Positions 23,663 to 60,805 of a stretch of 64,000 nt of DNA are shown one piece after another. Origin of the DNA: an uncultured Flavobacteriaceae bacterium (GTDB lineage: Bacteria > Bacteroidota > Bacteroidia > Flavobacteriales > Flavobacteriaceae); contig CANKZQ010000002.1 of the NCBI GenBank assembly GCA_947488345.1, forward strand, positions 558,001 to 622,000, given 5' to 3'. Numbering within the stretch: position 1 is the stretch's first letter; each line of letters starts with the position of its first letter. The notes below the pieces were generated by a model. That model saw only the letters and a program-made list of their open reading frames with translations. It searched no databases and was not told where the DNA came from. A program made the position numbers and the translations under genes.

Positions 23663-23830
23663 ATTTGAAACTTAATAAAATAAGAAAAACATCAAGTCAT
23701 AATATTTGATGGCTTTTGTTGCTAATTGATCGCATTTTCAGCGGAGAAAGAGGGATCAGAACCATGATTTCAATTATCTGATTATCAAGTTTTAAAAATC
23801 AACTTCTATCCTACTCACCGAATTACGCAC
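23663..23830. repeat. Att-like repeat, copy A
   Basis: Elements in order: a weak hairpin CATCAA (23690-23695) / TTGATG (23706-23711) followed by GCTTTTGTTGCTA; the core GCGGAGAAAGAGGGATCAGA ending in AC (23741-23762), which resembles the reverse complement of a serine-type tRNA 3' end; an A/T-rich stretch; and the tail CTACTCACCGAATTACGCAC (to 23830). Core start to tail end is 90 bases. Three further copies (29.3, 46.9, 60.7 kb) have the same order and orientation. Confidence 0.8.
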
Positions 23831-23870
23831 TTTTTATTTGTATTATTTTTTTCGACTTTTCAACTTATAT

Positions 23871-24338
23871 TTAGCACAAATGTAAAATCGAAGCTTCGTC
23901 TTCCAATAAAGGTCCGATGACTTCGACCTTTCTTTCCCCCTTTTCCATTAATTCTCTAACAGGCATTTCAAACACCCAATTAGGATTGTCTCGACCAACA
24001 ATCTCATAATATCTTGTTTTACTCAGTCCATACACAAGCTTTCCGATACCACTCCAATAAATAGCAGAGGTGCACATGGGGCACGGTTCATCACTTGTAT
24101 AGATAGTACAATCATTTAGAAATGAATAGTCAAACATTTTACATGCTTCTCTTATTAGATTCACTTCGGCATGTGCAAGGCAATCAATATCCGTATTAAT
24201 AGTGTTTTTTCCCCTTAAAATGACTTCTCCCGATTTATCTACAAGGATACACCCATATGGTAAATCTCCATTTTTCTTTGATTCTTTTGCAACTTTAATC
24301 GCCATTCTTATATTTTTCTTCTCATTTTCTAAATCCAT
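23871..24338 (-). CDS. Nucleoside/guanine deaminase-family protein
   Basis: A 155-residue zinc deaminase. The zinc site is complete: His56-Ala57-Glu58 (CLAHAEVN) and PCPMC with Cys86 and Cys89. DLPYGCILVDKSGEVI and the terminal YWSGIGKLVYGLSKTRYYEI fit the guanine/cytosine deaminase-like branch rather than tRNA adenosine deaminase. It removes ammonia from a purine or pyrimidine in the cytoplasm. It stands alone next to repeat copy A at the left edge of the accessory region. Confidence 0.82.
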   Translation of the reverse strand: MDLENEKKNIRMAIKVAKESKKNGDLPYGCILVDKSGEVILRGKNTINTDIDCLAHAEVNLIREACKMFDYSFLNDCTIYTSDEPCPMCTSAIYWSGIGKLVYGLSKTRYYEIVGRDNPNWVFEMPVRELMEKGERKVEVIGPLLEDEASILHLC

Positions 24339-24479
24339 TGCTTTTCATTTTTTATTTAATTTGAGTCTTATCTTCTTCTGTTCTTAGATTTCCCATATTA
24401 TGGTATTCTTTGGGTCAAAAGCTGGTCAGGTCACCGAGTACGATTCAAACCGACACCTATTTGTAATACTTTATTTCCT

Positions 24480-25373
24480 TCATGGTCTTTTTAATTCTGA
24501 TTCTATATTAACCCATTTGACTTTCCAGTTCTTCTCTTCATAGTCTCCAGTTGTGAAGAACAAGAACTTATTATCAGGTGTTATATAAGGATTACCATGG
24601 CCATTATGATTAATCGTATCATTAAGTTTTTTGGTATTAATCCAATCCCCTTTTCCATCTGAATAACTAATCATTAAATCAAGTTGGTTTCCAATAGCAG
24701 CGAATACAATATAATCTTCTTTTGGTGAAATAAAAGGGGTGCAAGTATTGATATCCAGGGTTGGTGAGAATTTGATTCTTTCTGCATTTAGATATTTACC
24801 TTTTGCCCGTTTTGAACTATAGATATCCATTTCGCTGTAGTCTAAATTACTGGAATGGAAATACAGTGTTCCCGAATTTGTTACTGAAGGATGAGACACT
24901 AGTTTGTCTCTCAAGTTTGGAATATCTACAAAAATTGGTTCATTCCAGATTCCATTAACTTTATCAGACTTCCAGATATGCCAAGTTTCCTTAACGCTCT
25001 CTATATTGGTTGGTCTTGTTGAGCTGAAATAGAGTGTATTGCCATCCGGAGAAAAACTCATCCCATGTTCATTATAGCTAGTATTGAAAAATGCTCTTAC
25101 GGGTTTAGACCAATTTTTCTTTTTCATCTTGATTACATATACATCAAAATTTTGAAAATTTTTATCCGAAATTGTATAATAGTATTCTTCTAAATCTGGA
25201 TTAAATACTCCCTTATGTATTAGTTTATGCTCAGGAATTATCTCTGTTTTAAATCCAATTGGAATGTTTATAGGTACATCATTAACATGAAATTCTAATT
25301 TAGAATTCCTTGTTTCACTCTTGCAGCTCAAAAAACCAATTATAAGTATTAATATAACTTTAAGTTTAATCAT
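24480..25373 (-). CDS. PD40/WD40-like beta-propeller lipoprotein
   Basis: A 297-residue lipoprotein (IIGFLSCKSE, Cys17). It carries several TolB-type PD40 blades: SFSPDGNTLYFSSTRP, SVTNSGTLYFHSS, FISPKEDYIVFAA and YITPDNKFLFFTTGD. Such propellers in Bacteroidetes are periplasmic scaffolds or part of OmpA-linked complexes, but no OmpA domain is present here. It is divergent from the AraC gene at 25524 across a 150-base gap that may be a shared control region. Ligand unknown. Confidence 0.8.
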   Translation of the reverse strand: MIKLKVILILIIGFLSCKSETRNSKLEFHVNDVPINIPIGFKTEIIPEHKLIHKGVFNPDLEEYYYTISDKNFQNFDVYVIKMKKKNWSKPVRAFFNTSYNEHGMSFSPDGNTLYFSSTRPTNIESVKETWHIWKSDKVNGIWNEPIFVDIPNLRDKLVSHPSVTNSGTLYFHSSNLDYSEMDIYSSKRAKGKYLNAERIKFSPTLDINTCTPFISPKEDYIVFAAIGNQLDLMISYSDGKGDWINTKKLNDTINHNGHGNPYITPDNKFLFFTTGDYEEKNWKVKWVNIESELKRP

Positions 25374-25523
25374 TTTTAATTTTTAATTTACAATGCTCAA
25401 AATATTATAACAAGTACATAATAATGTTATTCCGACAAAAAGTGCAAAAACTGGTTACTTCAGTTCAAAAATAAGCCCAAAGGTCAAGGTTTACTTGTAT
25501 AATTCGGCTATGGATTAATAAGA

Positions 25524-26504
25524 TTGTCTACCACGTTTGATTCTAACGGTTTTTCGAGGCATATAAATACAGCCAAATTATACAAGAACTTAAAAATCAA
25601 TACCCCTATTTTTGTTAGAGAAATTTTAATCAAATTGAATAACGGAAATAAAGGACATACATCGGCACTTTACATATGGAATGGGCTTTGTGTATTTTGG
25701 GGAACTTCGTTTCACACGAATCCTCATAAACATAATACGTTACAGTTGGTGTTTGATATTGAAAAAGAATTTTTATTGAAAGATGAAAATACTAAGTGGA
25801 GAGCTTATTCAGCTGCAATTATCGATGCTGACCACAATCATCAATTAGATAGTAATGGGAGTATTCAATTGTTTTTATACCTAGATAAAGATAGTAGATA
25901 TGCAAAATTATTAAAGAGTAAGTATCTGCAAAAACAATCAATTAATAGTATTGCTCAAGTAAGGATAGGAAGATTGAATGATAGTTTTTTTAAACAACTT
26001 CTTGTACAAAACAATTGTGATGAAATGTTTTTAGGTTGTATTTCAATTCTTAAAAAATTAATCAATTTCTCAAAACTTGAGCAATTAGATAAAAGGGTGG
26101 AGAAAGCCATTGACTTTATAACTAAATCACCAATAAAAAATTTCAAAGTCAAGGACATTTCACTTGAAGTAGGTCTGTCCGAAAGTAGACTGAGACATTT
26201 ATTTAAAGAACAAGTTGGTCAATCAATACAGAATTTTGTTATGTGGATGAGGGTAATTGATTCATTAAATGATGTATTAAAAGGCAAGAAATTAATGAAC
26301 ACTGCTTATGATTATGGATTTTCCGACGCATCGCATATGACTAAATCATTTATTGAAATAATTGGTGTTCCTCCGAGTAAGATTAAAACGTATGAAAAGG
26401 AAACTAAAATTATCACTTGCCATAACGTCAACCATTTTGCACTCAGTACTGAAATTATAAATGATTGGGAAAATGATGAAGTCATCAAAAAAATTAAAAT
26501 ATAA
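25524..26504 (+). CDS. AraC-family transcriptional regulator (TTG start)
   Basis: A 326-residue frame. Residues about 190-290 contain the AraC DNA-binding pair: FKVKDISLEVGLSESRLRHL, then KLMNTAYDYGFSDASHMTKS and the closing IGVPPSKIK. The N-terminal half has a cupin-like region with HTNPHKHNTLQLVFDIEK. The first in-frame ATG lies near residue 165, far inside, so a TTG at 25524 is the most plausible start. It may control the divergent PD40 lipoprotein or the downstream NTF2/DUF1801 genes, which follow within a few bases. Confidence 0.82.
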   Translation: MSTTFDSNGFSRHINTAKLYKNLKINTPIFVREILIKLNNGNKGHTSALYIWNGLCVFWGTSFHTNPHKHNTLQLVFDIEKEFLLKDENTKWRAYSAAIIDADHNHQLDSNGSIQLFLYLDKDSRYAKLLKSKYLQKQSINSIAQVRIGRLNDSFFKQLLVQNNCDEMFLGCISILKKLINFSKLEQLDKRVEKAIDFITKSPIKNFKVKDISLEVGLSESRLRHLFKEQVGQSIQNFVMWMRVIDSLNDVLKGKKLMNTAYDYGFSDASHMTKSFIEIIGVPPSKIKTYEKETKIITCHNVNHFALSTEIINDWENDEVIKKIKI

Positions 26505-26508
26505 AATT

Positions 26509-27009
26509 ATGAACATAAAAAGTGTTTTAAATCTTCTTATTGTTATCTGTTCAATTGTAATTTTCTCATGTAATCAGAACAATAACGAACTTACAAAACA
26601 AGAAATTGATAAAATCGAAGAAGAAGTTTTATTGTCTTATGAGTCATTTGAAAACAGTCTATCGCATGGAGATTTAGAAACAATTTCTAACTATTATTCT
26701 GATGACTCCAGATTCTATTGGGTAGAAAATGGTGCTATTACATATCCCACTGGAGCATCTGCCAGAGAGGCTATAAAGAGTTTTTATCCCTCATTGAAAA
26801 AATTAACTTTTACTTCTCTTGATAAAAAAGTAACTCCGATAAGCAGTTCTTCAGCAATGTTGTTTGTTGAGTATGAGCAAGTTTTAATTTTTCCTTCAGA
26901 CCAGAAAATTGAAATAAATGGTGCGATGACCATTTATATGGAAAAGAAAGAATCGAGTTGGGAATTCATCATTGGTCATTCTTCGGGAAAACCTGAAAAT
27001 CAAGAATAA
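26509..27009 (+). CDS. NTF2-like (SnoaL/DUF4440) lipoprotein
   Basis: The ATG at 26509 gives a 166-residue lipoprotein (MNIKSVLNLLIVICSIVIFS then Cys). This start is preferred to the ATG at 26461 because it opens directly into a signal peptide and avoids overlap with the AraC gene. The mature part has an NTF2-fold pattern (YYSDDSRFYWVENG, SFYPSLKKLTF, MTIYMEKKESSWEFIIGHSS). It sits 4 bases behind the AraC stop and ends directly at the DUF1801 start, so the three are probably co-transcribed. Confidence 0.78.
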   Translation: MNIKSVLNLLIVICSIVIFSCNQNNNELTKQEIDKIEEEVLLSYESFENSLSHGDLETISNYYSDDSRFYWVENGAITYPTGASAREAIKSFYPSLKKLTFTSLDKKVTPISSSSAMLFVEYEQVLIFPSDQKIEINGAMTIYMEKKESSWEFIIGHSSGKPENQE

Positions 27010-27465
27010 ATGAAAGCTAATCCTCAATTAAAAACATTCTTATCTCCTTATAGCCAAGAAGTACAAAAACTGGTTATAGATTTAAGAACCTTTGTGACCG
27101 AAGCAATTCCCGAAGCTAATGAATTGATTTGGGACAATTATAATGCATTAGCAATTGCCTACTCAAAATCAGAAAAACTCAAAGATGCTTTTTGCCACAT
27201 TGCAGTTTACTCTAAGCATGCAAATTTTGGATTCAACAGAGGGACAGAATTAAAGAAGTCAACTTTAGAATTAAGTGGTAAAGGAAAATTAATTCGATAC
27301 GTGACAGTAAAGGATATAAAATCCTTTCCAATAGAGGAACTTAAGAAGTTGTTATGGGAAGCTATGAGTATTTCTGAGAAAAACAATCCTGACTTAATTG
27401 ACAAAAAAGATGAAGGAAAAAGTATAGTTATGTCAATATCGAATAAAAAAAGGCGCCCTAATTAA
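27010..27465 (+). CDS. DUF1801 domain protein
   Basis: A 151-residue cytoplasmic protein. The pattern SPYSQEVQKLVIDLRTFVTEAIPEANELIWDNY (given here in parts: SPYSQEVQKLVIDLR, and EAIPEANELIW), with AVYSKHANFGFNRGTEL and a final lysine-rich tail, identifies the YdhG/DUF1801 fold, related to iron-chaperone-like proteins. Its ATG immediately follows the stop of the previous gene. No biochemical function is established for this family in Bacteroidetes. Confidence 0.8.
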   Translation: MKANPQLKTFLSPYSQEVQKLVIDLRTFVTEAIPEANELIWDNYNALAIAYSKSEKLKDAFCHIAVYSKHANFGFNRGTELKKSTLELSGKGKLIRYVTVKDIKSFPIEELKKLLWEAMSISEKNNPDLIDKKDEGKSIVMSISNKKRRPN

Positions 27466-27498
27466 TCACTTGAAATAAAGAGATGATATAAAACTATT

Positions 27499-27897
27499 AT
27501 GAAATCGATTAAACTCATTGTAGCGATAATATTTCTAGGTTGTTCTACCATATTGGTTGCCCAAACCTATGTTTCTCCACAACAAAAAATGACTACCAAT
27601 GGGTTCACAGATAGAGTTGAAACAAAACTTATCAAAAAAGTCGTCATAGATGGGAATAACTTTTCGGCAGAATTACCCGATGGAGGCATATTAAGTGGTT
27701 TTATTGAGCTATTTAGGACGGTAGAAAGAGAGGGTGAAAAACGACTAGTATATAAAATAGCTGCCGGAGGTATATTGAGTATTAATGATGACATAGCAGA
27801 TGATAAATGGGATTGTATCGTATTAAACCTATTGAGTACACCTATTAAAAAAGTCTATACATTTTGGTTAATAGAAGGGCATAAAGGAGATGATTAG
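27499..27897 (+). CDS. Hypothetical secreted protein
   Basis: A 132-residue protein with a clear signal peptide (MKSIKLIVAIIFLGCSTILV, cleavage after AQ). The mature part is a short predicted beta-structure (KKVVIDGNNFSAELPDGGIL, ending IKKVYTFWLIEGHKGDD) without a recognised motif. It lies 33 bases behind the DUF1801 gene on the same strand. Confidence 0.6.
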   Translation: MKSIKLIVAIIFLGCSTILVAQTYVSPQQKMTTNGFTDRVETKLIKKVVIDGNNFSAELPDGGILSGFIELFRTVEREGEKRLVYKIAAGGILSINDDIADDKWDCIVLNLLSTPIKKVYTFWLIEGHKGDD

Positions 27898-27937
27898 AAA
27901 ATCAATGTAAGTTATCATTTGAAAACAAACCTGTAAA

Positions 27938-28246
27938 ATGAAAAAAATAAAAGCTGGGGGAACAAAAGATTCATCAACATATATTCGCTTATCAAATTTA
28001 TCTTGGACGAGTAGTAAAACAGATTTAATAGAATTAATTTATGCACTACAAAGTAACGGCTCAGTCAATAGTGGGACTGCAGAAATTAAAGAAATGGCCT
28101 CAGGATGCGAACAGATTTTTAATTTAGATTTAGGTAATTATTATCACACATTTGAAGAGATTCGTTCAAGAAAATCAAATAGAACTAAATTTTTAGATCA
28201 CCTTAAAGAATCTCTTGAAAAGCGCATCATTGATTCTGATGAATAG
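27938..28246 (+). CDS. RteC C-terminal domain, stand-alone (conjugative-element relic or small regulator)
   Basis: A 102-residue protein whose pattern LSWTSSKTDLIELIYALQSN, followed by GTAEIKEMA, EQIFNLDLGNYYHTFEEIR and SNRTKFLDHLKESLEKRI, matches the C-terminal part of RteC, the protein that triggers excision of CTnDOT-type conjugative transposons. The N-terminal two thirds of RteC are missing and no partner RteA/RteB or integrase is visible. An ATG and a normal gap precede it, so it may be an expressed fragment. It marks the block between repeat copies A and B as derived from a mobile element. Confidence 0.75.
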   Translation: MKKIKAGGTKDSSTYIRLSNLSWTSSKTDLIELIYALQSNGSVNSGTAEIKEMASGCEQIFNLDLGNYYHTFEEIRSRKSNRTKFLDHLKESLEKRIIDSDE

Positions 28247-28288
28247 ACCAATAATATTTCTAAATCATGCAATCAAAACTCAGTAATT

Positions 28289-28807
28289 ATGATGAACAAA
28301 TCCATCGAAATAGAAACTAGCAGATTAAGGTTACGACAATGGAAAGAAAGTGATTTCAAAATCTATTCTGAATATTATTCCGACAAAGATTTAGCTAAAT
28401 ATGTAGGTGGGAAATTGGATAAGGAAATGGCATGGAGAAAAATGACTTCACTAATAGGCCATTGGTATTTAAAAGGTTTCGGCTATTGGGCCGTTGAAGA
28501 GAAAAATACACAAAAATTTGTTGGTTGTGTTGGCCTATGGAAGTCCGAGCCTTGGCCGGAAATTGAATTAGGGTATTGGATACTTCCCAAGATGTATGGT
28601 AATGGATATGCAACTGAGGCTGGTACAGCTTCAAAAATATTTGCATTTGACAGCCTAAAACTAAGTAGCTTGGTAAGCTATATCGACCCAAGTAATGAAC
28701 CTTCAAAACGTACTGCCCTTAAAATTGGTGCTACATATGACAGCATGATAAACCTATTAAATTTTGGCACTCATTGTGTTTATCGCTATTATAGGGATAA
28801 GACCTAA
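28289..28807 (+). CDS. GNAT N-acetyltransferase (RimJ/RimL-like)
   Basis: A 172-residue acetyltransferase. ETSRLRLRQWKESDF is the usual N-terminal strand, ELGYWILPKMYGNGYATEAG is the acetyl-CoA-binding loop (Q/RxxGxG/A variant), and IDPSNEPSKRTALKIGA is typical of the RimJ/RimL branch. It acetylates the amino group of a protein or small molecule. It is the last gene before the structured non-coding stretch at 28.8-29.7 kb. Confidence 0.86.
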   Translation: MMNKSIEIETSRLRLRQWKESDFKIYSEYYSDKDLAKYVGGKLDKEMAWRKMTSLIGHWYLKGFGYWAVEEKNTQKFVGCVGLWKSEPWPEIELGYWILPKMYGNGYATEAGTASKIFAFDSLKLSSLVSYIDPSNEPSKRTALKIGATYDSMINLLNFGTHCVYRYYRDKT

Positions 28808-29104
28808 TTAGAGGTGATGCCTAGAGGATATTTAAAATTAACTCACTTATCAATAGTTTTAGATTATCAGACTACTTTATTAAAGTAAGGTATAAAAAAA
28901 GGCTTCAAAAATTATTTTGCTAAGAAGGAATTGAATGAAGTTAAATTCAATTCGTATTACATAAGTTCAGTAACCACTTAAATTTACTGAACAAATCCTT
29001 TTTTCTAATAACTGTTGGTTTCATTTGTAACTAAAAAAAATGAAAAAACCTACAAATAGTGTCATTTGTAGGCTTTTGTTGCTATTTGATGGCGGACCGA
29101 AGTA

Positions 29105-29128
29105 AAAAAGGTAAAGACTTACCTTTTT
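29105..29128. terminator. Bidirectional hairpin terminator
   Basis: AAAAAGGTAA (29105-29114) pairs with TTACCTTTTT (29119-29128) over the loop AGAC. The A/T ends give a T-run on either strand. On the minus strand it directly follows the three-way-junction sequence. Confidence 0.65.
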
Positions 29129-29130
29129 GC

Positions 29131-29179
29131 GTAGGAGCCAGGTGATGCGACTGGGATTACCTATGGTCATCCCTCCTAC
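29131..29179. ncRNA. Candidate three-way-junction RNA
   Basis: A closing stem GTAGGAG (29131-29137) / CTCCTAC (29173-29179) encloses a hairpin CCAG (29138-29141) / CTGG (29151-29154) and a second stem GATTACC (29155-29161) / GGTCATC (29165-29171) with one mismatch. On the minus strand it is followed after two bases by a terminator, the layout of a small RNA or attenuator. No known family was recognised, and the transcribed strand is unknown. Confidence 0.4.
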
Positions 29180-29200
29180 CGTGTACTGCAAATGAAAAAG

Positions 29201-29218
29201 CAACCCTTTGGAGGGTTG
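29201..29218. terminator. Short hairpin
   Basis: CAACCCT (29201-29207) pairs with AGGGTTG (29212-29218) over the loop TTGG. On the minus strand it is followed by CTTTTT, so it could terminate leftward transcription. Confidence 0.5.
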
Positions 29219-29231
29219 ACATATTAAAATC

Positions 29232-29266
29232 AAAAATCCCACTCAAGTAAACTTGGTGGGATTTTT
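29232..29266. terminator. Strong bidirectional hairpin terminator
   Basis: AAAAATCCCAC plus CAAG (29232-29247, one bulged T at 29243) pairs with CTTG plus GTGGGATTTTT (29252-29266) over the loop TAAA, giving a 15-bp stem with T-runs on both strands. Confidence 0.75.
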
Positions 29267-29664
29267 TCAGTTAATCTGCGCATTTGCGCTTGATCAGCGG
29301 AGAAAGAGGGATCAGAACCTTGATTGTATCTATTTAACTATCAGATATTTAAAATTTATCTTCTACCCTACTCACCGAATTACTCACCTAACCAAAAATG
29401 ATAATTTTTGGTTTTACAATTATCGAGATGAAATGATAGAAGTTATCTTAATATTATAAAAAAAAATTATTTTTATAGAACATTGGATACGCACCAAAAG
29501 TCAGGCGGACGTTTAATTTCGATTTGGCAAATTGTATCATTCAAACTATCAACTATTAAATTAACGCTTAAATAAGTTCTCTAAGTACTCCTTTCGAGAT
29601 GCTATTTTCGAACCCGTTGAACTTATAATTAACGGTAATTGAATTAAAACACATAACCAACAAG

Positions 29665-30108
29665 TTAAAAAGGCCCTGCATAAACTTTCTTATCTAAAAT
29701 GGAATTCAAAATTAGTGAAGTAGTTAATTCGCCGTAAACTGCTAGTCTAGCGTTTAAATTTTCTAAATGCTTAGGATCTCTTACGTAACCTTTCATTAGC
29801 ATGCAATCATGACCTGTAAGTTTATGGCATTCACAAATTTCGGGAACACTACCAATAAATTTTTCGAATCGCTCTACTTGTCCAAATCTTATTTTTATTG
29901 AAATATACACTCCTAGAGGATAACCTATCCTATCCATATTTAAATCAGAGGAGTATTTTTCAATTACACCTGCATCTTCCATTTTTTGTATGCGTTCAGC
30001 AACTGTGGGTGAAGATAGCCCTACCTCTATTGCCAAGTCTTTTAGAGCAACTCTTGAATTTTCTTGGAGCATTTTCAAAATTTTCCAATTTATATCGTCA
30101 ATTTTCAT
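29665..30108 (-). CDS. Lrp/AsnC-family transcriptional regulator
   Basis: A 147-residue protein. It has an N-terminal helix-turn-helix (INWKILKMLQENSRVALKDL, then EVGLSSPTVAERIQKME) and a C-terminal RAM/ligand domain (CHKLTGHDCMLMKGYVRDPKHLENL), as in Lrp/AsnC regulators that sense amino acids. It is divergent from the DinB gene at 30225 with a 116-base gap and could control that operon. Confidence 0.88.
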   Translation of the reverse strand: MKIDDINWKILKMLQENSRVALKDLAIEVGLSSPTVAERIQKMEDAGVIEKYSSDLNMDRIGYPLGVYISIKIRFGQVERFEKFIGSVPEICECHKLTGHDCMLMKGYVRDPKHLENLNARLAVYGELTTSLILNSILDKKVYAGPF

Positions 30109-30224
30109 AAGTAATATTTTTTATTTAAAAAGCAATGCAAAAATAGGTTATTTATTATTATAACCTAATAAAATAACGTCAATTAAGAAAAATACATTTT
30201 AACTTTGAATAAAAATTAATCTAA

Positions 30225-30743: not shown

Positions 30744-31033
30744 TGCTCGAAATTAGAACTGTTTGCGAGCATTGCGGTAAATCATTACCCAATAATAGTA
30801 AAGAAGCGATGATATGTAGTTTTGAATGCACGTATTGTAAAACTTGTGCACAAGAACTTTTTGAGAATGTATGCCCTAGTTGTGGAGGGAATTTTCAACC
30901 AAGACCAATTAGACCTAAAGAAATGCTTGTTAAATATCCGTCTTCAATTAAAAAGATTCTGGGTCGCAAAGAGCAAAAACAAATTAATACGATGAAATTA
31001 AAGTACGTTAAACTAAAACCTGAAGAAAGATGA
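30743..31033 (+). CDS. DUF1272 zinc-ribbon-like protein
   Basis: The ATG at 30743 gives 96 residues beginning MLEIRTVCEHCGKSLP. It overlaps the DinB stop by one base (TAATG), which is why this start is preferred to the upstream ATG at 30707. Cysteine pairs CEHC, CTYCKTC and CPSC look like two zinc sites, and the whole is characteristic of DUF1272. Function unknown. Confidence 0.85.
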   Translation: MLEIRTVCEHCGKSLPNNSKEAMICSFECTYCKTCAQELFENVCPSCGGNFQPRPIRPKEMLVKYPSSIKKILGRKEQKQINTMKLKYVKLKPEER

Positions 31034-31850: not shown

Positions 31851-31869
31851 TACAAGGTAATGTGAATTA

Positions 31870-34506: not shown

Positions 34507-34515
34507 AAATGTGAT

Positions 34516-35088: not shown

Positions 35089-35090
35089 AT

Positions 35091-36085: not shown

Positions 36086-36096
36086 AAATATCTGAC

Positions 36097-38673: not shown

Positions 38674-38678
38674 TAATT

Positions 38679-48762: not shown

Positions 48763-48772
48763 CCTATCTATT

Positions 48773-49363: not shown

Positions 49364-49374
49364 TTTATAAAAGT

Positions 49375-53500: not shown

Positions 53501-54296
53501 CAACGGCATTTTCGATATCTGAAATTGACTTTACATATCCCAACCCACGAACTAAATATTCAGCTTGATTGATTTCTAATGTCTGTGCGCCAATATCTTT
53601 ATTACTTTCTTTGACTGCTTTTACAACTTGATGTAATCCAATATTGTATTGTCTCATCAATTCAGGGTTCACATCTACTTGGTATTCCTGTACATATCCC
53701 CCAATTGAAGCTACTTCAGAAACACCACTTGCTGATGACAAGGCATATTTTACGTAGTAATCCTGAATACTTCGTAATTCGTGTAAATCCCATCCGCCGG
53801 TAACGTTGCCATTTTCATCCCGACCTTCAAGTGTGTACCAAAATATTTGCCCCAAGCCAGTCGCATCAGGACCCAAAGCAGGATTTACATCATTTGGTAG
53901 TAAACCACTTGGTAAAGAATTTAGTTTTTCAAGGATTCGACTACGACTCCAATAAAACTCAATATCTTCTTCAAAGATGATATAGATACTTGAAAAACCA
54001 AACATAGAAGAGCTTCGGATAGTTTTCACTCCTGGAATTCCTAGCAAGGATGATGTTAGCGGATAGGTGATTTGATCTTCAATATCTTGTGGAGACCGGC
54101 CATCCCATTTTGTAAATACAATTTGTTGATTTTCTCCTATATCTGGAATTGCGTCAACGGCTACAGGATCACTAGGTAAAAAACCAGTATCCCAATTGAA
54201 TGGGGCATTAACAGTTCCCCATCCTATAAATAACACCAGCATTAATACTGCAACAAGTTTGTTTTCTATTAGAAATTTTATGCTTTTATTTAGCAT
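50589..54296 (-). CDS. cusA: CusA/CzcA-type heavy-metal RND efflux pump with enlarged middle membrane region
   Basis: A 1235-residue pump. The start TVNAPFNWDTGFLPSDPVAV, followed by DAIPDIGENQQIVFTKW, is typical of HME-RND pumps. Transmembrane residues GTMVDVGVILSEN and IATDDGVVMATYLTQTFD carry the acidic proton-path positions. The middle (residues about 510-660) is longer than in the 1,040-residue CzcA: several extra hydrophobic segments precede FILFRKYYTRILQWALAHKM. Similar enlarged forms occur in other Bacteroidetes. It expels copper, silver or other divalent ions. Start and order fit the operon HYC_CC_PP, pump, channel, DUF2911, adaptor. Confidence 0.9.
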   Translation of the reverse strand: MLNKSIKFLIENKLVAVLMLVLFIGWGTVNAPFNWDTGFLPSDPVAVDAIPDIGENQQIVFTKWDGRSPQDIEDQITYPLTSSLLGIPGVKTIRSSSMFGFSSIYIIFEEDIEFYWSRSRILEKLNSLPSGLLPNDVNPALGPDATGLGQIFWYTLEGRDENGNVTGGWDLHELRSIQDYYVKYALSSASGVSEVASIGGYVQEYQVDVNPELMRQYNIGLHQVVKAVKESNKDIGAQTLEINQAEYLVRGLGYVKSISDIENAVVSSKDYTALRIKDIGKVSLGPATRRGILDKEGAEVVGAVVVARYGANPMEVINNVKEKIVELSAGLPTKVLPDGRTSQVTIVPFYDRTELIQETLGTLNEALTLEILITILVIIVMVFNLRASILISGLLPIAVLMVFIAMKIFNVDANIVALSGIAIAIGTMVDVGVILSENILRHLDENEGKSPINTVVYNATAEVSGAILTAVLTTIISFIPVFTMIGAEGKLFRPLAFTKTFALTASLLVALFLIPPFAAYLFKKKSISKIKNYAINSMLILLGIIAIVYGYWLGLILITFGVIALLKLNAQLSEKRAKLANIIVSVLVIVFLLATYWRPLGVDKTIFWNLLFVSLICFGLLGVFILFRKYYTRILQWALAHKMLFLSIPTLIVLLGFMILKNTGKEFMPSLNEGSFLLMPTSMPHAGGEENKRVLQQLDMAVASIPEIKMVVGKAGRTESALDPAPLSMYENMIQYKPEYMLNSDGEQQRYKVNDDGLFELKDGRFIANPNNSQNVTMGAIERSQLIEDKNGEFYRNWRPEINSPNDIWKEIVRVTKLPGVTSAPKLQPIETRLVMLQTGMRAPMGIKVKGQDLKQIEAFGVQLERILKQVEGVKVEAVFADRIVGKPYLLIDIDREKIARYGISIQDVQDVLKVAVGGVVLTQTVEGRERYGIRVRYPRELRGNPTDLQQIYVPVEKGSPVPLSELASIRYEQGPQVIKSEDTFLIGYVLFDKLDGFAEVNVVENAQALIKEKIDSGELVVPKGINYQFTGTYENQLRAEETLSVVVPLALAIIFLILYFQFRSVATSFMVFTGIAVAFAGGFIMIWLYGQDWFLNFNFFGENLRDLFQMHPINLSVAVWVGFIALFGIATDDGVVMATYLTQTFDRNKPTNKNDIRASIVEAGEKRIRPCLMTTATTILALLPVLTSTGRGSDIMIPMAIPSFGGMLIALITLFVVPVLYSWKEELQLKKAEK

Positions 54297-54404
54297 TGGT
54301 ATTGATTATTAAACAGTTAGACATTGGTGTTCAGAAAACACCGAATACAAGAAATTATCCTAATGGATTATATCCACAGGATAATAAAGTCTATTGTTTA
54401 AAAA

Positions 54405-54821
54405 TCAAATTAAATAACTCTCGTCAAGTTTGAAAATTTGCCTGACAATAAGAGGAGGAGGGTATTCTGAGAACGATGTTGTATTCTCTTCTAATCCTTC
54501 AAAAAGATTGACGTATGTATATACAAATGAAGCGGCAAAAAATTGTTGATCTAGTGACAAGGTGTCGAATGTAATCTTTAACTCATCTTGTCCTTCAACT
54601 ACATCTATAACATCTTCACAACAGGATTTTTTCTTTTGATGCGCTTCGCATGATGTTTCTACCATCATTTTTTCCATTTCACATTTTTCAGCTTCAAAAA
54701 ATACCGAAGTATCTTTTAACTCATCCCCACAATAGTGTTGATGAATTGTAAAAGAAAATGTAGAAAAAAGCACGATGAGTGCCATTAAAAAAGATCCTAT
54801 TTTATGAATTATTTGTTTCAT
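54405..54821 (-). CDS. HYC_CC_PP-family protein
   Basis: A 138-residue exported protein. The signal peptide is followed by HQHYCGDEL, a CCED motif, and a late PPPLIVRQIF; these give the family its name. Cysteine and histidine clusters (CEMEKM, CEAHQKKKSCC) suggest metal binding. The family is nearly always found next to Bacteroidetes copper or heavy-metal efflux genes and here is the first gene of the operon, about 110 bases before the pump. Confidence 0.85.
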   Translation of the reverse strand: MKQIIHKIGSFLMALIVLFSTFSFTIHQHYCGDELKDTSVFFEAEKCEMEKMMVETSCEAHQKKKSCCEDVIDVVEGQDELKITFDTLSLDQQFFAASFVYTYVNLFEGLEENTTSFSEYPPPLIVRQIFKLDESYLI

Positions 54822-55010
54822 TTACAGAACAAAGTTACAAAAACCATCTATAACTGGCTTAAAATTTTGTTAAATCAAAATTATATTACAGTCCTATAAC
54901 GATTATTAAGCAATCATATTTTAAAAATCAGAAAATCAATGACTTTTGCTAAGCTATTGAACTTTTAAAGATTTTAATTTATACCTCCATTAGATTACTA
55001 AAGTATATTT

Positions 55011-55427
55011 TTAGCTACTGAAGACTTCATCATCATTTTTGAAATTTTTAAATTCAATTTCATAACCATTAGGATCCATTACGAAGAAGGATAAGTGCTC
55101 ACCTAACTTATTCTTTAAAAAAGTAGCTTCAGCGGTCACTTCCAAATTCATTCCAAACAATTTTGAGTATAATTTCCCCCACAACTCAACGTCTACAATG
55201 ACTCCAAAATGAAAAGAGGGCAATATCTCGTTTTCAAATCGATAGTTTTTATAGTCGAATTTAAAATTACCTGTTTTGGTAAATGTTACTTGGTTGCCAT
55301 GAAGGTTTATATCAATCCAGTTTTCTGAATATCGCCCAAGCGTTGCCCCTAAAGTATTAACATAGAACTTTTTTGTATCCTCAATATTAAGACAAGGTAA
55401 TGATAAGTGAAATGCAAATTTTTTCAT
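55011..55427 (-). CDS. VOC-family (glyoxalase/dioxygenase-like) protein
   Basis: A 138-residue protein with two beta-alpha-beta-beta-beta modules: FHLSLPCLNIEDTKKFYVNT at the start and HLSFFVMDPNGYEIEFKNF at the end, the VOC pattern with a metal-ligand His and Glu. There is no signal peptide. Members are dioxygenases, isomerases or resistance proteins. It stands alone between the efflux operon and the small acidic genes; substrate unknown. Confidence 0.84.
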   Translation of the reverse strand: MKKFAFHLSLPCLNIEDTKKFYVNTLGATLGRYSENWIDINLHGNQVTFTKTGNFKFDYKNYRFENEILPSFHFGVIVDVELWGKLYSKLFGMNLEVTAEATFLKNKLGEHLSFFVMDPNGYEIEFKNFKNDDEVFSS

Positions 55428-55475
55428 AATTCAGAAATATTAAGGGCAGCACTTTAGCGCGCTGCCCATTAGTTC

Positions 55476-55787
55476 TTATTCATTTAGCTTTAAGTCTACA
55501 ATAGTAAACAGTGTATATTCTTCATCATCCTCATCTAACTCAGTTTCTGTTGTGTAGGTAACTTCAAAATTTTTACCCTTGAATTTCGCATCCTTAAGGT
55601 CATATTTTTTACTTGCTACCGAATTGATTTGCTGAAATTCATAGAACTCTTCTTCTCCTTCAGCTGAGAAATAATAGATGTCATTTTCATAACCATCAAA
55701 AATTGCTGTAATAGTGGTTTTATCTTGATTGGCTTCAATACTAACGAATGATATAAATGTCAATAGTGTTATAAATAGTGCTTTCAT
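55476..55787 (-). CDS. Small secreted acidic protein, paralogue of 55971
   Basis: A 103-residue protein with a signal peptide (ending VSIEAN) and an acidic mature region (FDGYENDIYYFSAEGEEEFY, TETELDEDDEEYTLF). Its strand order GYY/FYxF, FEFxxxN, TYTTE matches the neighbour at 55971 (GYYTFKFEFDELIVFEQIN, FNVTYEELLDESDDDDF). It is probably a duplicated small regulatory or binding protein of unknown function. Confidence 0.68.
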   Translation of the reverse strand: MKALFITLLTFISFVSIEANQDKTTITAIFDGYENDIYYFSAEGEEEFYEFQQINSVASKKYDLKDAKFKGKNFEVTYTTETELDEDDEEYTLFTIVDLKLNE

Positions 55788-55970
55788 CTTTTTAAATTTT
55801 AAATATTAACAAATTTCTTTATTTCCGAAGCATACATCACCTCAAGTTCGGAGGCTTTTAGCGAATAACAATCGATATTACTCGCGCGTGATTAAATTAC
55901 AACATGACTCTCTCCATATAAAATTTACAAAGTTTGATTAAAATTATTCTCTAAACTGTCATTAGATTCA

Positions 55971-56273
55971 TTACGAACCCAGTAGTTCAAGGTTTCTTAT
56001 TCTAAAAATGATAAAATCATCATCGTCAGATTCATCTAAAAGTTCTTCATAGGTTACATTAAATTTGCTATCGATATATGTACTTCCTCGCAGATCGAAT
56101 TCTTCTAAAACAGTTTTATTTATTTGCTCAAAAACGATTAATTCGTCAAATTCAAATTTGAAAGTATAATACCCATCGTGATACTTTACAAATATTCCTT
56201 CCTCAATTTTTGTTTGAAATATATTATAGTCTGCCATAACTTCTAATTTTAACAGTTCATATTTATGAGTCAT
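55971..56273 (-). CDS. Small acidic protein, paralogue of 55476
   Basis: A 100-residue frame (or 88 residues from the second ATG at 56237, MADYNIFQTKIEEG). It has no signal peptide and a strongly acidic tail (ELLDESDDDDFIIF). Similar spacing of GYYTFKF, VFEQIN and FNVTYEE to the secreted neighbour suggests a duplicated domain with a different location. Function unknown. Confidence 0.62.
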   Translation of the reverse strand: MTHKYELLKLEVMADYNIFQTKIEEGIFVKYHDGYYTFKFEFDELIVFEQINKTVLEEFDLRGSTYIDSKFNVTYEELLDESDDDDFIIFRIRNLELLGS

Positions 56274-56298
56274 ATTACTATATGACTATTACTTGCAA

Positions 56299-56580
56299 TT
56301 AATCTTCTATTTCTTCTGTGTCTATATCCAAATCGTAATTTTCATCTAATTCGTGATCCTCCATAGCTGCAATCAGTTTTTTACTCACTTTTACCAGATA
56401 TATAGTATCATCGGTGCGTACTTCGACACACTCTATCATCTCATTGTATTGATTCTTAAATGAAATAATATCACTCGTATTATAACCGTCGGGATAACCC
56501 GTTACTAATAAATTTAATATGTCATCATTAAGTTTGTGGTAGTCTACAATGACCCTTCTAAAATTTTGATCTTTTTTCAT
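56299..56580 (-). CDS. Hypothetical acidic protein
   Basis: A 93-residue protein without signal or membrane segment. It starts MKKDQNFRRVIVDYHKLNDD and ends with a highly acidic tail (DHELDENYDLDIDTEEIED). No family was recognised. It begins one base after the DHS-like stop, so it is likely co-transcribed with the polyamine genes. Confidence 0.6.
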   Translation of the reverse strand: MKKDQNFRRVIVDYHKLNDDILNLLVTGYPDGYNTSDIISFKNQYNEMIECVEVRTDDTIYLVKVSKKLIAAMEDHELDENYDLDIDTEEIED

Positions 56581-56581
56581 C

Positions 56582-57565
56582 TTACATATGTAATAAATAG
56601 GCGAATATTAACGGTGCAACAATGGTTGCATCGGACTCTATAATAAATTTAGGAGTATCGATATCTAACTTACCCCATGTGATTTTTTCGTTAGGAACAG
56701 CACCAGAATAGGAGCCATAACTAGTCGTAGAATCACTTATTTGGCAGAAATAACTCCAAAATGGTGTTTCTGGTCTTTCCATATCTTGATACAACATGGG
56801 TACTACGCAAATTGGAAAATCTCCAGCAATGCCTCCTCCTATTTGGAAAAACCCAATTCCTTGCTTAGAATTTTCGGTATACCAATCAGCCAAAAAAGTC
56901 ATATACTCGATGCCTGATTTCATGGTACTGGCTTTTAATTCACCTTTTAAAACATAACTTGCGAAGATATTCCCCATGGTGCTATCTTCCCAGCCGGGTA
57001 CAACAATGGGTAGATTTTTCTCCGCAGCGGCATACATCCAGGAATCTTTGATGTCTATTTCATAATATTCTTCTAAAACACCAGACAGTAATAATTTGTA
57101 CATATACTCATGTGGGAAATAACGTTCACCAGCTTCTTCAGCATCTTTCCAAATTTTATAAATGTGTTTTTGTAAACGTCTAAAAGCCTCCTCTTCTGGT
57201 ATACATGTATCAGTAACTCTATTTAGTCCTTTTTCAAGTAGCTCCCATTCATCTGCTGGAGTCAAATCTCTATAGTTTGGTACGCGTTTATAATGTGAAT
57301 GGGCGACCAAATTCATAATATCTTCTTCCAAGTTTGCTCCAGTACAAGAAATAATATGCACTTTGTCTTGACGTATTACTTCGGCAAATATTTTACCTAA
57401 TTCAGCAGTGCTCATAGCTCCTGCCAACGAAACCAACATTTTAGAGCCATTTGCTAATTGCTGCTCGTATGCTTTTGCGGCGTCAACGACCGAAGCAGCA
57501 TTAAAATGCAAATAATGTTTTTCAATAAAATTGGAAACAGCTCCCTTTTTAATACTCTCCATCAT
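56582..57565 (-). CDS. Deoxyhypusine-synthase-like protein (polyamine operon), catalytic Lys absent
   Basis: A 327-residue protein of the deoxyhypusine synthase fold (MLVSLAGAMSTAELGKIFAE, HIISCTGANLEED, IPIVVPGWEDSTMGNIF-like, FQIGGGIAGDFPICVVPM, SDSTTSYGSYSGAVPNEKIT, and SDATIVAPLIFAYLL). In eukaryotic and archaeal enzymes a lysine stands just after the GGG motif (GGGxxKHH); here the sequence is GGGIAGDF, so the lysine that carries the covalent intermediate is not in place. Its role with arginine decarboxylase and agmatinase is probably in polyamine conversion (for example homospermidine-like chemistry). It overlaps the agmatinase by 17 bases. Confidence 0.8.
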   Translation of the reverse strand: MMESIKKGAVSNFIEKHYLHFNAASVVDAAKAYEQQLANGSKMLVSLAGAMSTAELGKIFAEVIRQDKVHIISCTGANLEEDIMNLVAHSHYKRVPNYRDLTPADEWELLEKGLNRVTDTCIPEEEAFRRLQKHIYKIWKDAEEAGERYFPHEYMYKLLLSGVLEEYYEIDIKDSWMYAAAEKNLPIVVPGWEDSTMGNIFASYVLKGELKASTMKSGIEYMTFLADWYTENSKQGIGFFQIGGGIAGDFPICVVPMLYQDMERPETPFWSYFCQISDSTTSYGSYSGAVPNEKITWGKLDIDTPKFIIESDATIVAPLIFAYLLHM

Positions 57566-58487
57566 CTTTAAATTTTGACAATTGATTAAAAGGACTCTCT
57601 ATAGTATCATCTTGATAATCATCTATTTTTTCATTAGAAGTAAACTTATAACTCAACATCTTATAATACAGTTTCGCTGCTAAAAAATCAGACGATTTTT
57701 CAGTAGGGTTTGGACATAACTCTACAATATCAAAACCCACCACATTCTTTTCTTCGAATACTTTCTTTAAAAAATCAAGTGTTTCATACCATAATAACCC
57801 ACCTGGTTCTGGCGTGCCTGTGGATGGCATTATTGACGGGTCAAGTGCATCTAAATCAAAGGTGATAAAAACAGTATCTGTCATCTGATCGATAGCATTC
57901 TCCATCCAATAGTCATCAGCAACCATATCGTGTGCATAAAACGTTTTATCATCTTCAGCAATAGTTTTCTCAATAGCATCCATGCTACGAATTCCAACTT
58001 GTACTAAGTTTGTTGTTTGACTGGCTTCATATGCGGCACAAGCATGATTACATGATGAACCTTCGTATTCTTTTCTTAAATCTGCATGCGCATCAATATG
58101 CAATACGGTAAGATTATTGAAGCATTCATTAAAGGCTCGAATTGTTCCTATTGAAACTGAATGCTCACCACCAAAAATGGTCACAAACTTGTTCTTTTTA
58201 ATGTATTTTTTTGTGACTTCATGAACAACATCTACCATGGCTTCTGGAGAGCTATTTTCAGTGACTGCATCTGCCAAATAAACACCTTCCTTATATACTT
58301 CTGATGCGGTTTCTATGTCATATAACTCCATGTTCTCAGAAGCCTCTAAAAAAGCTTCAGGACCTTTATCTGCACCTTTTTGCCATGTACTTGTACCATC
58401 ATAAGGAACAGGTATTAATACAATTTTTGCTCTATCAATACCGGCGTACTTTTCTTCTATACCTGCATAGGTTTTCTTTGTATTCAT
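57549..58487 (-). CDS. speB: Agmatinase (SpeB-like ureohydrolase)
   Basis: A 312-residue binuclear-manganese ureohydrolase. The metal motifs GGEHSVSIG, HIDAHADLR and TFDLDALDPSIMPSTGTPEPG are all intact. It splits agmatine to putrescine and urea. It lies 11 bases behind the arginine decarboxylase, so the two convert arginine to putrescine. Its last 17 bases overlap the deoxyhypusine-synthase-like gene, confirming an operon. Confidence 0.9.
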   Translation of the reverse strand: MNTKKTYAGIEEKYAGIDRAKIVLIPVPYDGTSTWQKGADKGPEAFLEASENMELYDIETASEVYKEGVYLADAVTENSSPEAMVDVVHEVTKKYIKKNKFVTIFGGEHSVSIGTIRAFNECFNNLTVLHIDAHADLRKEYEGSSCNHACAAYEASQTTNLVQVGIRSMDAIEKTIAEDDKTFYAHDMVADDYWMENAIDQMTDTVFITFDLDALDPSIMPSTGTPEPGGLLWYETLDFLKKVFEEKNVVGFDIVELCPNPTEKSSDFLAAKLYYKMLSYKFTSNEKIDDYQDDTIESPFNQLSKFKDDGEY

Positions 58488-58498
58488 TTTATTAACTA

Positions 58499-59944
58499 TT
58501 AATGTGTTGTCACTAATTCTTTTTTGTTCAGTTTGATGCTGTCTTTCTTTTGGCTGTATCCTAAAATTGATAGTAATTCTTCTGAACTTTGTTGTTCTGC
58601 GAACACTGAGGTTACTAAGTTTCCAAAATCATCCATATCTATAAGTATATGTTTAGGATTGGGAATTAAACAATGTTGTAAGCCTCCAAAACCACCAATA
58701 TTTTCTTGATAAGCACCTGTATTAAAAAAGCCTATATATAAGGGTTTGTCTTTATCATAATTGGGTAAATAAATAGCGTTTGAGTTCTGTTCAGAATTGT
58801 AATAATCATCACTGTCACAAGTCAATCCACCTAATAAAACACGTTCGTATGTATCATTCCAACGATTGATTGGTAACATGATGAATCTTTTATTGATTGC
58901 CCAAGTATCAGGTAATGTTGTGATAAATGAAGAATTGATCATATTCCATTTTTCGCGATCATTTTGTTGTTTTTGATACAATACTTCATATATAGCTCCA
59001 CCACTTTCACCAACTGTAAAACTGCCAAATTCAGTAAAAATATGAGGTACAGCAACATTAGCTTCGCGACATACGATGTTGATCTGGTTCACAATTTCAT
59101 CAATCATGTATTCATAATCGTAGTCAAAAGCCAAAGAAGTCTTGATTGGAAACCCTCCACCAATATTTAGGCTGTCGAGGGTTGGACATTCCCTTTTTAA
59201 TTGTGTATAGACTTTTAAGCATTTATGTAATTCATTCCAATAATAAGCATTGTCTTTGATGCCTGTATTGATAAAGAAATGAAGCATCTTCAATGTTACT
59301 TTGTTATTATTCTTAATTTGATTCTTGTAAAAGGGGACAATATTTTTATAGCCAATCCCTAATCGAGATGTGTAAAACTCAAATTTAGGCTCTTCTTCAG
59401 AAGCAATTCGAATTCCTATTTTAAAATTCCCTTCAATTTCGTTTGACAACAAATCAATCTCTTCATAATTATCAATAATAGGAATACAGTTATGATGCCC
59501 ATTATTAATCAAGCGAGCAATATTGGAAATGTATTCTGCTCGTTTAAATCCATTACAAATGATATAGGTATTGCCATTGATTTTGCCCTCAGATTTAAGA
59601 TTTTCCACAATATTAATATCGAATGTTGATGAAGTCTCTATATGGATTTCATTTTTCAGAGCCTCATCTATTACATGCTTAAAGTGAGAGCTTTTGGTAC
59701 AATAACAGTAATTGTATGACGCTTTGTAATGGTATTTTTCAATGGCTTTATTAAACCAATGTTTAGCTCGCTGAATATTTTCAGATATTTTTGGTAAATA
59801 GGTAAATTTTAACGGAGTTCCATAGGTTTCTACCAGTTTTGAAAGGTCGAGATCATGAAACTGTAGTTTATCCTCTTTAAGCGTAAACTCGGGTTGAGGA
59901 AAATCATATGTTTGATCGATAAGATCAATGTATTTTGTTTTCAT
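58499..59944 (-). CDS. speA: Arginine decarboxylase (alanine-racemase-fold, SpeA-like)
   Basis: A 481-residue PLP enzyme of the fold-III decarboxylase group. YNYCYCTKSSHF near residue 77 carries the PLP lysine, LKMLHFFINTG and LDSLNIGGGFPI the cofactor barrel, and LLGGLTCDSDDYYNSE the active-site Cys/Asp from the neighbouring subunit. It is shorter than E. coli SpeA (about 650) because the helical insert is missing, as usual in Flavobacteria. It makes agmatine from arginine, which the next gene cleaves. Confidence 0.86.
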   Translation of the reverse strand: MKTKYIDLIDQTYDFPQPEFTLKEDKLQFHDLDLSKLVETYGTPLKFTYLPKISENIQRAKHWFNKAIEKYHYKASYNYCYCTKSSHFKHVIDEALKNEIHIETSSTFDINIVENLKSEGKINGNTYIICNGFKRAEYISNIARLINNGHHNCIPIIDNYEEIDLLSNEIEGNFKIGIRIASEEEPKFEFYTSRLGIGYKNIVPFYKNQIKNNNKVTLKMLHFFINTGIKDNAYYWNELHKCLKVYTQLKRECPTLDSLNIGGGFPIKTSLAFDYDYEYMIDEIVNQINIVCREANVAVPHIFTEFGSFTVGESGGAIYEVLYQKQQNDREKWNMINSSFITTLPDTWAINKRFIMLPINRWNDTYERVLLGGLTCDSDDYYNSEQNSNAIYLPNYDKDKPLYIGFFNTGAYQENIGGFGGLQHCLIPNPKHILIDMDDFGNLVTSVFAEQQSSEELLSILGYSQKKDSIKLNKKELVTTH

Positions 59945-60047
59945 TATTGCTTGTTAAAATAAATAGACTAGAATAGTGTACTATTGAATAGTACTTTAAT
60001 AAATAATCGGGTATGTAAGCAATAAGATTTAAACTCGTAATTGCTTC

Positions 60048-60068
60048 TGCCTTGTGACGACAAGGGCA
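60048..60068. repeat. REP-like palindrome in the speA leader
   Basis: TGCCTTGT (60048-60055) and ACAAGGGCA (60060-60068) form a hairpin with one bulged G and a GACG loop. Together with the neighbouring AGAAGCAATTACGAG on the minus strand it resembles the GTCATTGCGAG...GAAGCAAT repeats common in Bacteroidetes genomes. It could also affect the leader of the arginine decarboxylase mRNA. Confidence 0.4.
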
Positions 60069-60597
60069 AAAGAAACGATAGTTTCAATGAAGTTCTTTGA
60101 AGAAGTTGGCTCTAAGATTCGGTTACTTATCCAATAAGCTGCTTTTTGATGTAACTTCTTAATTATCAAAAGCCCGAAACAACAAACACGTTTCAAAATG
60201 TTAAATTAAATACTCGTTAAAAGTATATTTAGACACTGCTAATGTAAACTATTTTTTAAAATAAAACTTTTTTTTAATATTTTTTTGACAAATATCGAAA
60301 ATGAAATATGTGACTAATTTTCTATCTAAAGTCAAATTCACCTTCGTATGTACTACTACCGATATTTTAGCAATAGACTTGGCCTTATTCATTTGAATAC
60401 ATAAATACTAATAATGAATGATAAATTTAGTTAACTATAAATTCTTACGTTCAATCTCTAACTATTCACAAAATTCTGTGGCATTTAAAGGTCACCAAGT
60501 ATTTCAACCTTTTTTGCCCATTTAAAAAGAGATATTTAATAATAAATCGTAGTGTGAGATTAAATACAATGTGTCAGTTGAAGAATTAAATAAGTGA

Positions 60598-60805
60598 GAC
60601 CGAATTGGTCACCTTTTACTAATAATATTTAGTTTCAAATGAAACTAAATAAAATGAAAAAGCCTACAAATAGTGTTATTTGTAGGCTTTTGTTGCTATT
60701 TGATAGCATTTTCAGCGGAGAAAGAGGGATCAGAACTTTACTTCTATATAACTGTATAACAATATTTTAAAAAATAACTTCTCTCTTACTCACCTAATAA
60801 GTCAC
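60598..60805. repeat. Att-like repeat, copy D
   Basis: The 64-base upstream segment (60598-60661) matches 46751-46816 near copy C. The hairpin GCCTACAAATA (60662-60672) / TATTTGTAGGC (60677-60687) has an 11-bp stem and a GTGT loop and is followed by TTTTGTTGCTATTTGATAGC. The core GCGGAGAAAGAGGGATCAGA plus AC is at 60715-60736, and the tail ends with CTTACTCACCTAATAAGTCA and C at 60805. Core start to tail end is 91 bases, the same as in the other copies. Confidence 0.82.

Follow-up and report, generated by a model that had tools for sequence, protein, structure and literature searches.

The 64-kb window analyzed here, that is, the whole of positions 558001-622000 of contig C2 in the 3.8-Mb, 27-contig genome of an uncultured Flavobacteriaceae bacterium (G000), most likely harbors CIME-like islands without an integrase that have accreted into an array, carry att sites of the tRNA-Ser type, would rely on integrases supplied in trans, and have probably been reshuffled by homologous recombination as well; we put the probability of this reading at roughly 0.85. 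The window was compared with 17 genomes of the genus and with a wider sample of 397 genomes of the family that does not include G015 and G016. The relatives discussed below are G012, which belongs to the same genus; G015; G016, which is a different species from G000, with core stretches of the two genomes about 80% identical; and G411, which is F. hungaricum.

Reading of the sequence reveals four copies of the putative att site, A to D, all in the same orientation, with cores that start at window positions 23741, 29297, 46858 and 60715. In each copy, a hairpin resembling a terminator is followed by the 3'-terminal part of a tRNA-Ser(TGA) and by a tail in which CTCACC-type units are directly repeated. 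The first-pass annotation had described four att-like repeats of one orientation with 90-92 bases from core to tail end; these repeats are present, the spans read off the sequence are 90, 92, 92 and 91 bases for A to D, and the repeats are att sites that originate from the tRNA-Ser 3' end. The single order of parts that it ascribed to all copies holds for the succession of hairpin, core and tail but breaks down in detail: the hairpin of copy B (29044-29077) lies about 220 bp from the core, and copy C has no GCTATTTGAT linker. An alignment of eight copies (A, C and D of G000, C and D of G016, a and b of G015, and the copy of the family genome G315; B was excluded) shows that a full copy contains, from left to right, arm repeats, the terminator-like hairpin, a linker, the core, some 75 bases, and arm repeats again. 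The left arm repeats are CACCGAATTGGTCACC in D of G016 and b of G015, with D of G000 differing by one base, and the right arm repeats are CTCACCGAATTACGCACC. In C and D, a second pair of CACC-type units, overlooked in the first-pass annotation, is located on the left side of the hairpin; no left arm is recognizable in A and B. In C and D, arm-type repeats flank the core on both sides, and the same arm-core-arm order is found in the attP sites of lambda-type integrases. A further copy in G000, at C2:545575-545678, is decayed. The features of the four copies are as follows (window positions; strand is given where one is assigned):

23685-23717: copy A hairpin, with no recognizable arm to its left
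23741-23757, minus strand: copy A core, resembling the tRNA-Ser 3' end (att core)
23814-23830: copy A right-hand arm repeats, CTCACCGAATTACGCAC
29044-29077: copy B hairpin
29094-29296: tRNA-Ser 3' flank, detached from the tRNA; the same stretch abuts the intact tRNA-Ser in G015
29297-29313, minus strand: copy B core, the left end of the tract that is nearly identical in G016
29371-29388: copy B right-hand arm repeats, CTCACCGAATTACTCACC
46750-46767: copy C left-hand arm, GTAACCGAATAGGCCACC
46812-46846: copy C terminator-like hairpin
46858-46874, minus strand: copy C core
46932-46949: copy C right-hand arm repeats, CTCACCGAATTACGCACC
60598-60618: copy D left-hand arm, one mismatch to CACCGAATTGGTCACCTTTTA
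60658-60691: copy D terminator-like hairpin
60715-60731, minus strand: copy D core, where high identity with G016 and G015 ends on the right; the tails diverge beyond it
60789-60805: copy D right-hand arm repeats, CTCACCTAATAAGTCAC

A blastn search of the whole genome with copy C, a check suggested along with the first-pass annotation, placed A (E 7e-21), B (6e-26) and D (2e-15) far above the remaining matches. The 17-base core, with up to two mismatches, occurs 6 times in G000, all of them on one contig and in a span of 45 kb, compared with one occurrence of the backwards control; the core matches in G000, G015 and G016 are located at the tRNA-Ser locus. The core is the 3' end of the tRNA, and the intact tRNA-Ser(TGA) gene that carries it, at C2:626179-626264 on the minus strand, is found at one end of the array, approximately 7.4 kb past copy D, outside the window and on the side predicted by the orientation of the copies; the proposed descent of the core from a serine tRNA is thereby borne out. 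A partial copy, E, is present at C2:625946-626020, and its core ends about 160 bp short of the intact gene. Given that the occurrences of the core include the intact tRNA and copy E, the array ends at the tRNA.

The form of the core with the CAGAAC change is found exactly in 3 of the 17 genus genomes and, with one mismatch allowed, in 2 of the 397 family genomes (G000 and G315). An exact scan of assembled genome contigs yielded 7 stretches in 5 records, including CANMSH010000002.1 (G016), CANLUS010000002.1 (G015) and CALSPF010000002.1 (G315). Searches of viral, plasmid and phage collections with the att sequence gave no match, and no Rfam family reached its gathering score in the window. The G315 copy has both arms and adjoins genes that, from their sequence, encode NiFe hydrogenase; no tRNA-Ser was found in the surrounding 100 kb, and tRNA-Ser(TGA) is located on another contig of that genome. 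From the shared change in the T-loop, copies A, B and D had been thought to descend from one another; this is not supported, as CAGAAC is also present in another genus (L103) and in two further records (L098 and L099). The change is located on the core's tail side, and the tails of L098 and L099 are quite different, so that, together with the occurrence in another genus, CAGAAC seems to be a hallmark of the sites that the elements themselves carry.

The kinship of the copies with integrase-linked sites was analyzed using a profile of the left side and hairpin that was built from the eight aligned copies and trimmed before the core, so that it contains no tRNA sequence (cut-off E up to 0.01; 20 Markov sets as controls). 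The F. hungaricum integrase, used as a query, gave 35 matches in 13 of the 17 genus genomes, and 30 of these 35 were made into loci. The profile matched at 16 of the 30 tyrosine integrase loci, which correspond to 15 distinct places (L183 and L187 are one place), and in none of the 20 control sets; there was no match at 14 loci. Beyond the profile match, ARAGORN identified a gene in 12 of the 16 cases (tRNA-Pro in 8, tmRNA in 2, tRNA-Ser(TGA) in 1 and tRNA-Val in 1) and no tRNA or tmRNA in 4. A profile of the right tail only matched at 8 of the 30 loci, with no control match; the earlier suggestion that the tails are sites of the integrase-arm type is supported. The arm CACCGAATTnnnCACC is present exactly at 6 of the 30 loci (5 places) and with one mismatch at 4 of the 30; loci of this type include an integrase of G000 itself at tRNA-Pro (L169, arm CACCGAATCGTACACC), in which the Pfam domains Arm-DNA-bind_5, Phage_int_SAM_5 and Phage_integrase were detected (scanned as L024). 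With up to two mismatches, CACCGAATTGGTCACCTTTTA has 6 matches in the 17 genomes (0 for the backwards control): three in arrays, two adjoining integrase genes, and one adjoining a sequence similar to a tmRNA 3' end. The latter sequence resembles the tmRNA 3' ends of L158 and L160; ARAGORN is silent there, and the stretch is interrupted by N.

Two relatives combine an integrase with this type of site at tRNA-Ser itself, which answers the question, raised with the first-pass annotation, of whether tyrosine integrases in relatives border the same sequence, as do the 16 of 30 loci described above. In G012, a 425-aa integrase, a GTGTCAG...GTGACACC arm, the hairpin, the core and an intact tRNA-Ser(TGA) follow in that order, and the site aligns with copy D over the entire left side; an RteC-like gene follows inward of this series. 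The other end of the G012 element was absent from its 39.6-kb contig by either profile or core; five other stretches searched in the same manner contained only known matches in three cases and none in two. In F. hungaricum, the same order is seen at tRNA-Ser with a 437-aa integrase, although the letters of the arm differ (GCGCCACGAATGCGCCAC), and, at a distance of 76 kb, a second intact tRNA-Ser has a core with a right arm 150 bp from it. Judged by sequence alone, the copies in the window are att sites of Bacteroidota tyrosine integrases that use the tRNA-Ser(TGA) 3' end, and recombination by a cognate enzyme is predicted; the G012 integrase is a candidate for that role, and a small HTH gene that accompanies it may encode a directionality factor.

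As the first-pass annotation had observed, the window encodes no integrase: a six-frame search with PF00589 detected 5 matches in the G000 genome and none on the array contig, so that a resident integrase on this contig can be rejected; the array contig of G015 likewise gave none. The array contig of G016 has three PF00589 matches, two of these less than 9 kb from the contig end and one 93 kb to the left of copy B, adjoining tRNA-Ser(GCT) and tRNA-Pro. Between the copies, PF00589 detected no integrase in any of the three arrays (G000, G015, G016), and inspection by eye of the six reading frames in the gaps beside the left arms revealed no integrase remnant. XerA or IntI-like recombinases of 385-391 aa were considered as movers of the blocks and set aside, given that they head integron-like arrays of their own. 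The blocks between the copies are the following:

23758-29296: block A-B, with a deaminase, an AraC-type regulator, a GNAT protein and an RteC relic; no integrase found
27938-28246, plus strand: RteC C-terminal fragment of 102 aa within block A-B (PF09357, E 2.5e-35, profile positions 127-219 of 219)
29314-46857: block B-C, with an AsnC-type regulator, DinB, DUF5916, M1 and S41 peptidases, an amidohydrolase and others; no mobility gene by Pfam
46875-60714: block C-D, with RND-type efflux genes followed by deoxyhypusine synthase, arginase-family and decarboxylase-family genes; no mobility gene by Pfam

A Pfam scan of 39 proteins, encoded by 38 ORFs within A-D and by one ORF beyond D, detected no family of integrases, relaxases or conjugation proteins apart from the RteC fragment; 10 of the 39 match no Pfam family, and a mobility gene of an unfamiliar kind may be among them. 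The fragment, a mobile-element relic in block A-B, shares 59% identity with the RteC-like protein next to the G012 integrase. Deoxyhypusine synthase is encoded by a single copy in G000, G015 and G016, in each case within the array. In six further genus genomes, the gene is located elsewhere, more than 1 Mb from tRNA-Ser in G001 and on a contig other than that of the tRNA-Ser match in five; it is missing from 8 genus genomes, five of which are less than 90% complete.

Copy B retains a junction. The 203 bp to the left of its core have a single match in each of G000, G016 and G015, spanning 199-203 bases, and two partial matches at other places, in G016 and G014. In G015, this stretch is the 3' flank of the intact tRNA-Ser, whereas in G000 and G016 it passes via the core into the tail of an element, which makes copy B an attR-like junction; to judge from the sequence, B records an insertion right at the boundary between the tRNA and its flank. 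Positions 29057-60805 of G000 are 99.2% identical to G016, compared with 80.3% for the core stretch to the right of the tRNA and 83.2, 79.3 and 81.5% elsewhere (three shorter pieces of this comparison are at 88.4, 96.4 and 96.5%). Over the 23,704 bp that run from core B to 53.0 kb, the two genomes differ at 12 bases without a gap, as against 3 mismatches in the 216 bp to the left of core B (P 0.0002 at the rate of the block); the nearest differences that bracket the left end of the tract lie 3 bp to the left of core B and 2.3 kb to its right. The stretch from B to about 53 kb has been shared recently between the two species. The nearly identical tract ends near 53 kb within an RND pump gene, away from any att core, and the segment from 53.0 to 60.7 kb, with 219 mismatches, is a mosaic of the three genomes at 88-100% identity; the end inside a gene, together with this mosaic, argues that homologous recombination took part, apparently acting here alongside site-specific recombination. 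At copy D, high identity with G016 and G015 stops at the core, and the tails differ among the three genomes. The stretch in common with G015, 55011-60814, has its left limit away from any copy; a G015 block at 475.6-503.5 kb is found in G000 to the left of copy A; and the make-up of the array differs among G000, G015 and G016. The suggestion that the blocks are accreted islands is supported.

These observations bear differently on the alternatives. The copies could be old scars of a fossil array, dead for site-specific recombination, such that the recent exchange of blocks would be ordinary homologous recombination through shared flanks and repeats after DNA uptake. The stop of the nearly identical tract within a gene near 53 kb and the three-way mosaic beyond it fit this scenario, as do the homology provided on both sides by the 203-bp flank and the operon region and the decay both of the copy at C2:545575-545678 and of the left arms in A and B. 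However, the final difference before the nearly identical tract is only 3 bp to the left of core B, the high identity at D does not extend past the core, beyond which the three genomes have different tails, and both arms are kept in C and D, so we lean against a dead array while regarding it as a serious possibility. Another scenario, in which each module arrived as an autonomous ICE, IME or phage that later lost its integrase and does not move without one of its own, draws on the RteC relic in A-B and on the related elements of G012 and F. hungaricum, which bear an integrase at the same tRNA; loss after integration is also a step in the origin of CIMEs, according to the accessible part of one account (PMC5704250). 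Against it stands the tract from B to 53 kb, gap-free with 12 mismatches: this tract is alike in two species and an integrase was found in neither, so the shared form was already integrase-less. Nor was any remnant recognized beside the left arms in six frames, by eye, and we consider this scenario rather unlikely.

Still another reading, that a dispersed terminator or REP-like repeat resembles a tRNA end by chance, is suggested by the terminator-like hairpin in every copy from A to D, and the first-pass annotation had held that the att interpretation would fall if the element proved to be such a repeat at many unrelated places. In G000, the element is instead confined to a single locus, next to the very tRNA that it resembles, and its arms and profile recur at integrase-linked sites; we therefore reject this reading as practically untenable and retain the accretion array of integrase-less islands.

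Several known systems are comparable. In marine bacteria, tycheposons place cargo genes at tRNA ends and often bring their own recombinase. The elements of G012 and F. hungaricum are sited at the same tRNA-Ser and have their arm, hairpin and core arranged in the same order, but they encode an integrase, unlike the modules of the window. A close precedent is provided by the ICESt1-related elements of Streptococcus thermophilus, for which the available part of the account describes CIMEs and the tandem accretion of elements that have an att site in common (PMC5704250); the common traits are the tandem arrangement at one gene 3' end, the retention of att sites, the loss of integration and transfer genes, and chimeric junctions. 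As far as that account extends, the differences are that the sites in the window are those of Bacteroidota arm-binding tyrosine integrases at tRNA-Ser, that the cargo is metabolic, and that the three arrays yielded no integrase; cis-mobilization is a hypothesis for the window. The ssrA islands of Dehalococcoides, 15 of which have no integration module in the part of the report available (PMC3146451), similarly consist of many tandem islands with metabolic cargo behind one RNA gene, separated by direct repeats of its 3' end; they depend on a Ccr-type serine recombinase, whereas the integrases linked to the sites described here are tyrosine recombinases with arm repeats. The islands of Riemerella anatipestifer, from the same host family, have a resident tyrosine integrase according to the accessible portions of the respective reports (PMC6764341, PMC9745183), and the modules of the window do not. 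Within the part of the literature on Flavobacteriaceae and Bacteroidetes accretion arrays that was covered, no array resembling this one was found.

With respect to the definition of CIMEs, flanking att sites are represented by cores with right arms at all four copies and left arms at C and D, and by a left side in common with integrase-linked sites, and PF00589 and Pfam searches detected neither an integrase nor transfer genes. ICE or IME ancestry is no more than hinted at by the RteC relic, in block A-B only, and mobilization in cis would be a prediction, which is why we use the label "CIME-like". None of the modules has an integrase of its own, as an autonomous ICE, IME or prophage would. 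In the proposed mechanism, elements would recombine at the core and come to lie side by side, so that at each junction the right-arm end of an element meets the hairpin end of its neighbor; the modules would move when a visiting or resident element supplies an integrase in trans; the hairpin may keep a terminator behind the tRNA after every insertion; and homologous recombination would additionally reshuffle the blocks. A stronger version, that this is a standing docking array, comparable to an integron on the scale of islands, at which integrase-less metabolic modules are swapped between species at tRNA-Ser through borrowed integrases or resident ones with similar arms, is tentative and, in our estimate, rather improbable. 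One module holds the sole deoxyhypusine synthase gene found in G000, G015 and G016.

The array indicates that metabolic blocks can be stacked and shared without a recognizable mobility gene, and for want of such a gene, blocks of this kind would be overlooked by integrase-based island finders. The arm and hairpin profile offers a means to delimit integrase-less islands of Bacteroidota and to match them with possible integrases.

The window carries deoxyhypusine synthase as part of a small group of genes:

window:56582-59944, deoxyhypusine synthase gene with arginase-family and decarboxylase-family genes

In three genomes, this deoxyhypusine synthase is the sole copy and in each of them is located inside the array of blocks delimited by the att copies, along with the arginase-family and decarboxylase-family genes; a further six genomes in the genus encode the synthase at another location. 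To the left of att copy A, an inverted repeat lies between two opposite-strand ORFs:

window:14269-14441 and 18295-18467, inverted repeat (173 nt, 80%)

Several observations concern att-like sequences and tRNA gene ends beyond the window. At G000:C2:503690-503830, in the source genome, two blocks are joined that in G015 are about 28 kb apart; the att profile search detected no att copy at this join, which contains GGTTCGACTCCCATCATCT, a sequence resembling the 3' end of another tRNA. At two loci, tRNA-Ser is directly adjoined by units repeated in tandem, each about 100-130 bp long (GGATTACTCCCTCTGGTCGTGATCCC...):

L077 (G001:C1 2244.5-2245.8 kb), tandem units beside tRNA-Ser
L080 (G003:C12 221.6-222.3 kb), tandem units beside tRNA-Ser

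A comparable unit also comes after the partial att copy E of the source genome and after a remnant in G014. A genome of a different genus also has an att copy in which both arms are present (L103, G315:C2 near 626.9 kb); it adjoins NiFe hydrogenase-like genes, and the 100 kb of surrounding sequence that was inspected contains no tRNA-Ser. At L201 (G008:C255 near 18.8 kb), the arm motif, with 2 mismatches, occurs about 90 bp ahead of a sequence resembling the tmRNA 3' end; this stretch is interrupted by N, and ARAGORN called no gene in it.

The source genome also contains an integron-like array, at locus L136 (G000:C3:490001-508000):

L136 8100-9257, XerA/IntI-like recombinase (385 aa)
L136 9784-17456, 11 attC-like repeats

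The recombinase scores 194 bits, below the NCBIfam integron cut-off of 265, and 225 bits, just above the XerA cut-off of 220. The repeats, which measure about 120-125 nt from AAC to GTT, are interspersed with small ORFs on the same strand. For successive repeats, 5-8 of 9 letters pair between the 3' end of one and the 5' end of the one after it (10 of 10 pairs); the mean for other pairs is 2.9 of 9. Under the same strict pattern, attC-like repeats were detected at three loci of relatives (three at L137, two at L138 and four at L139). Integrons have been reported before in Bacteroidota (PMC8618304, PMC9668308).
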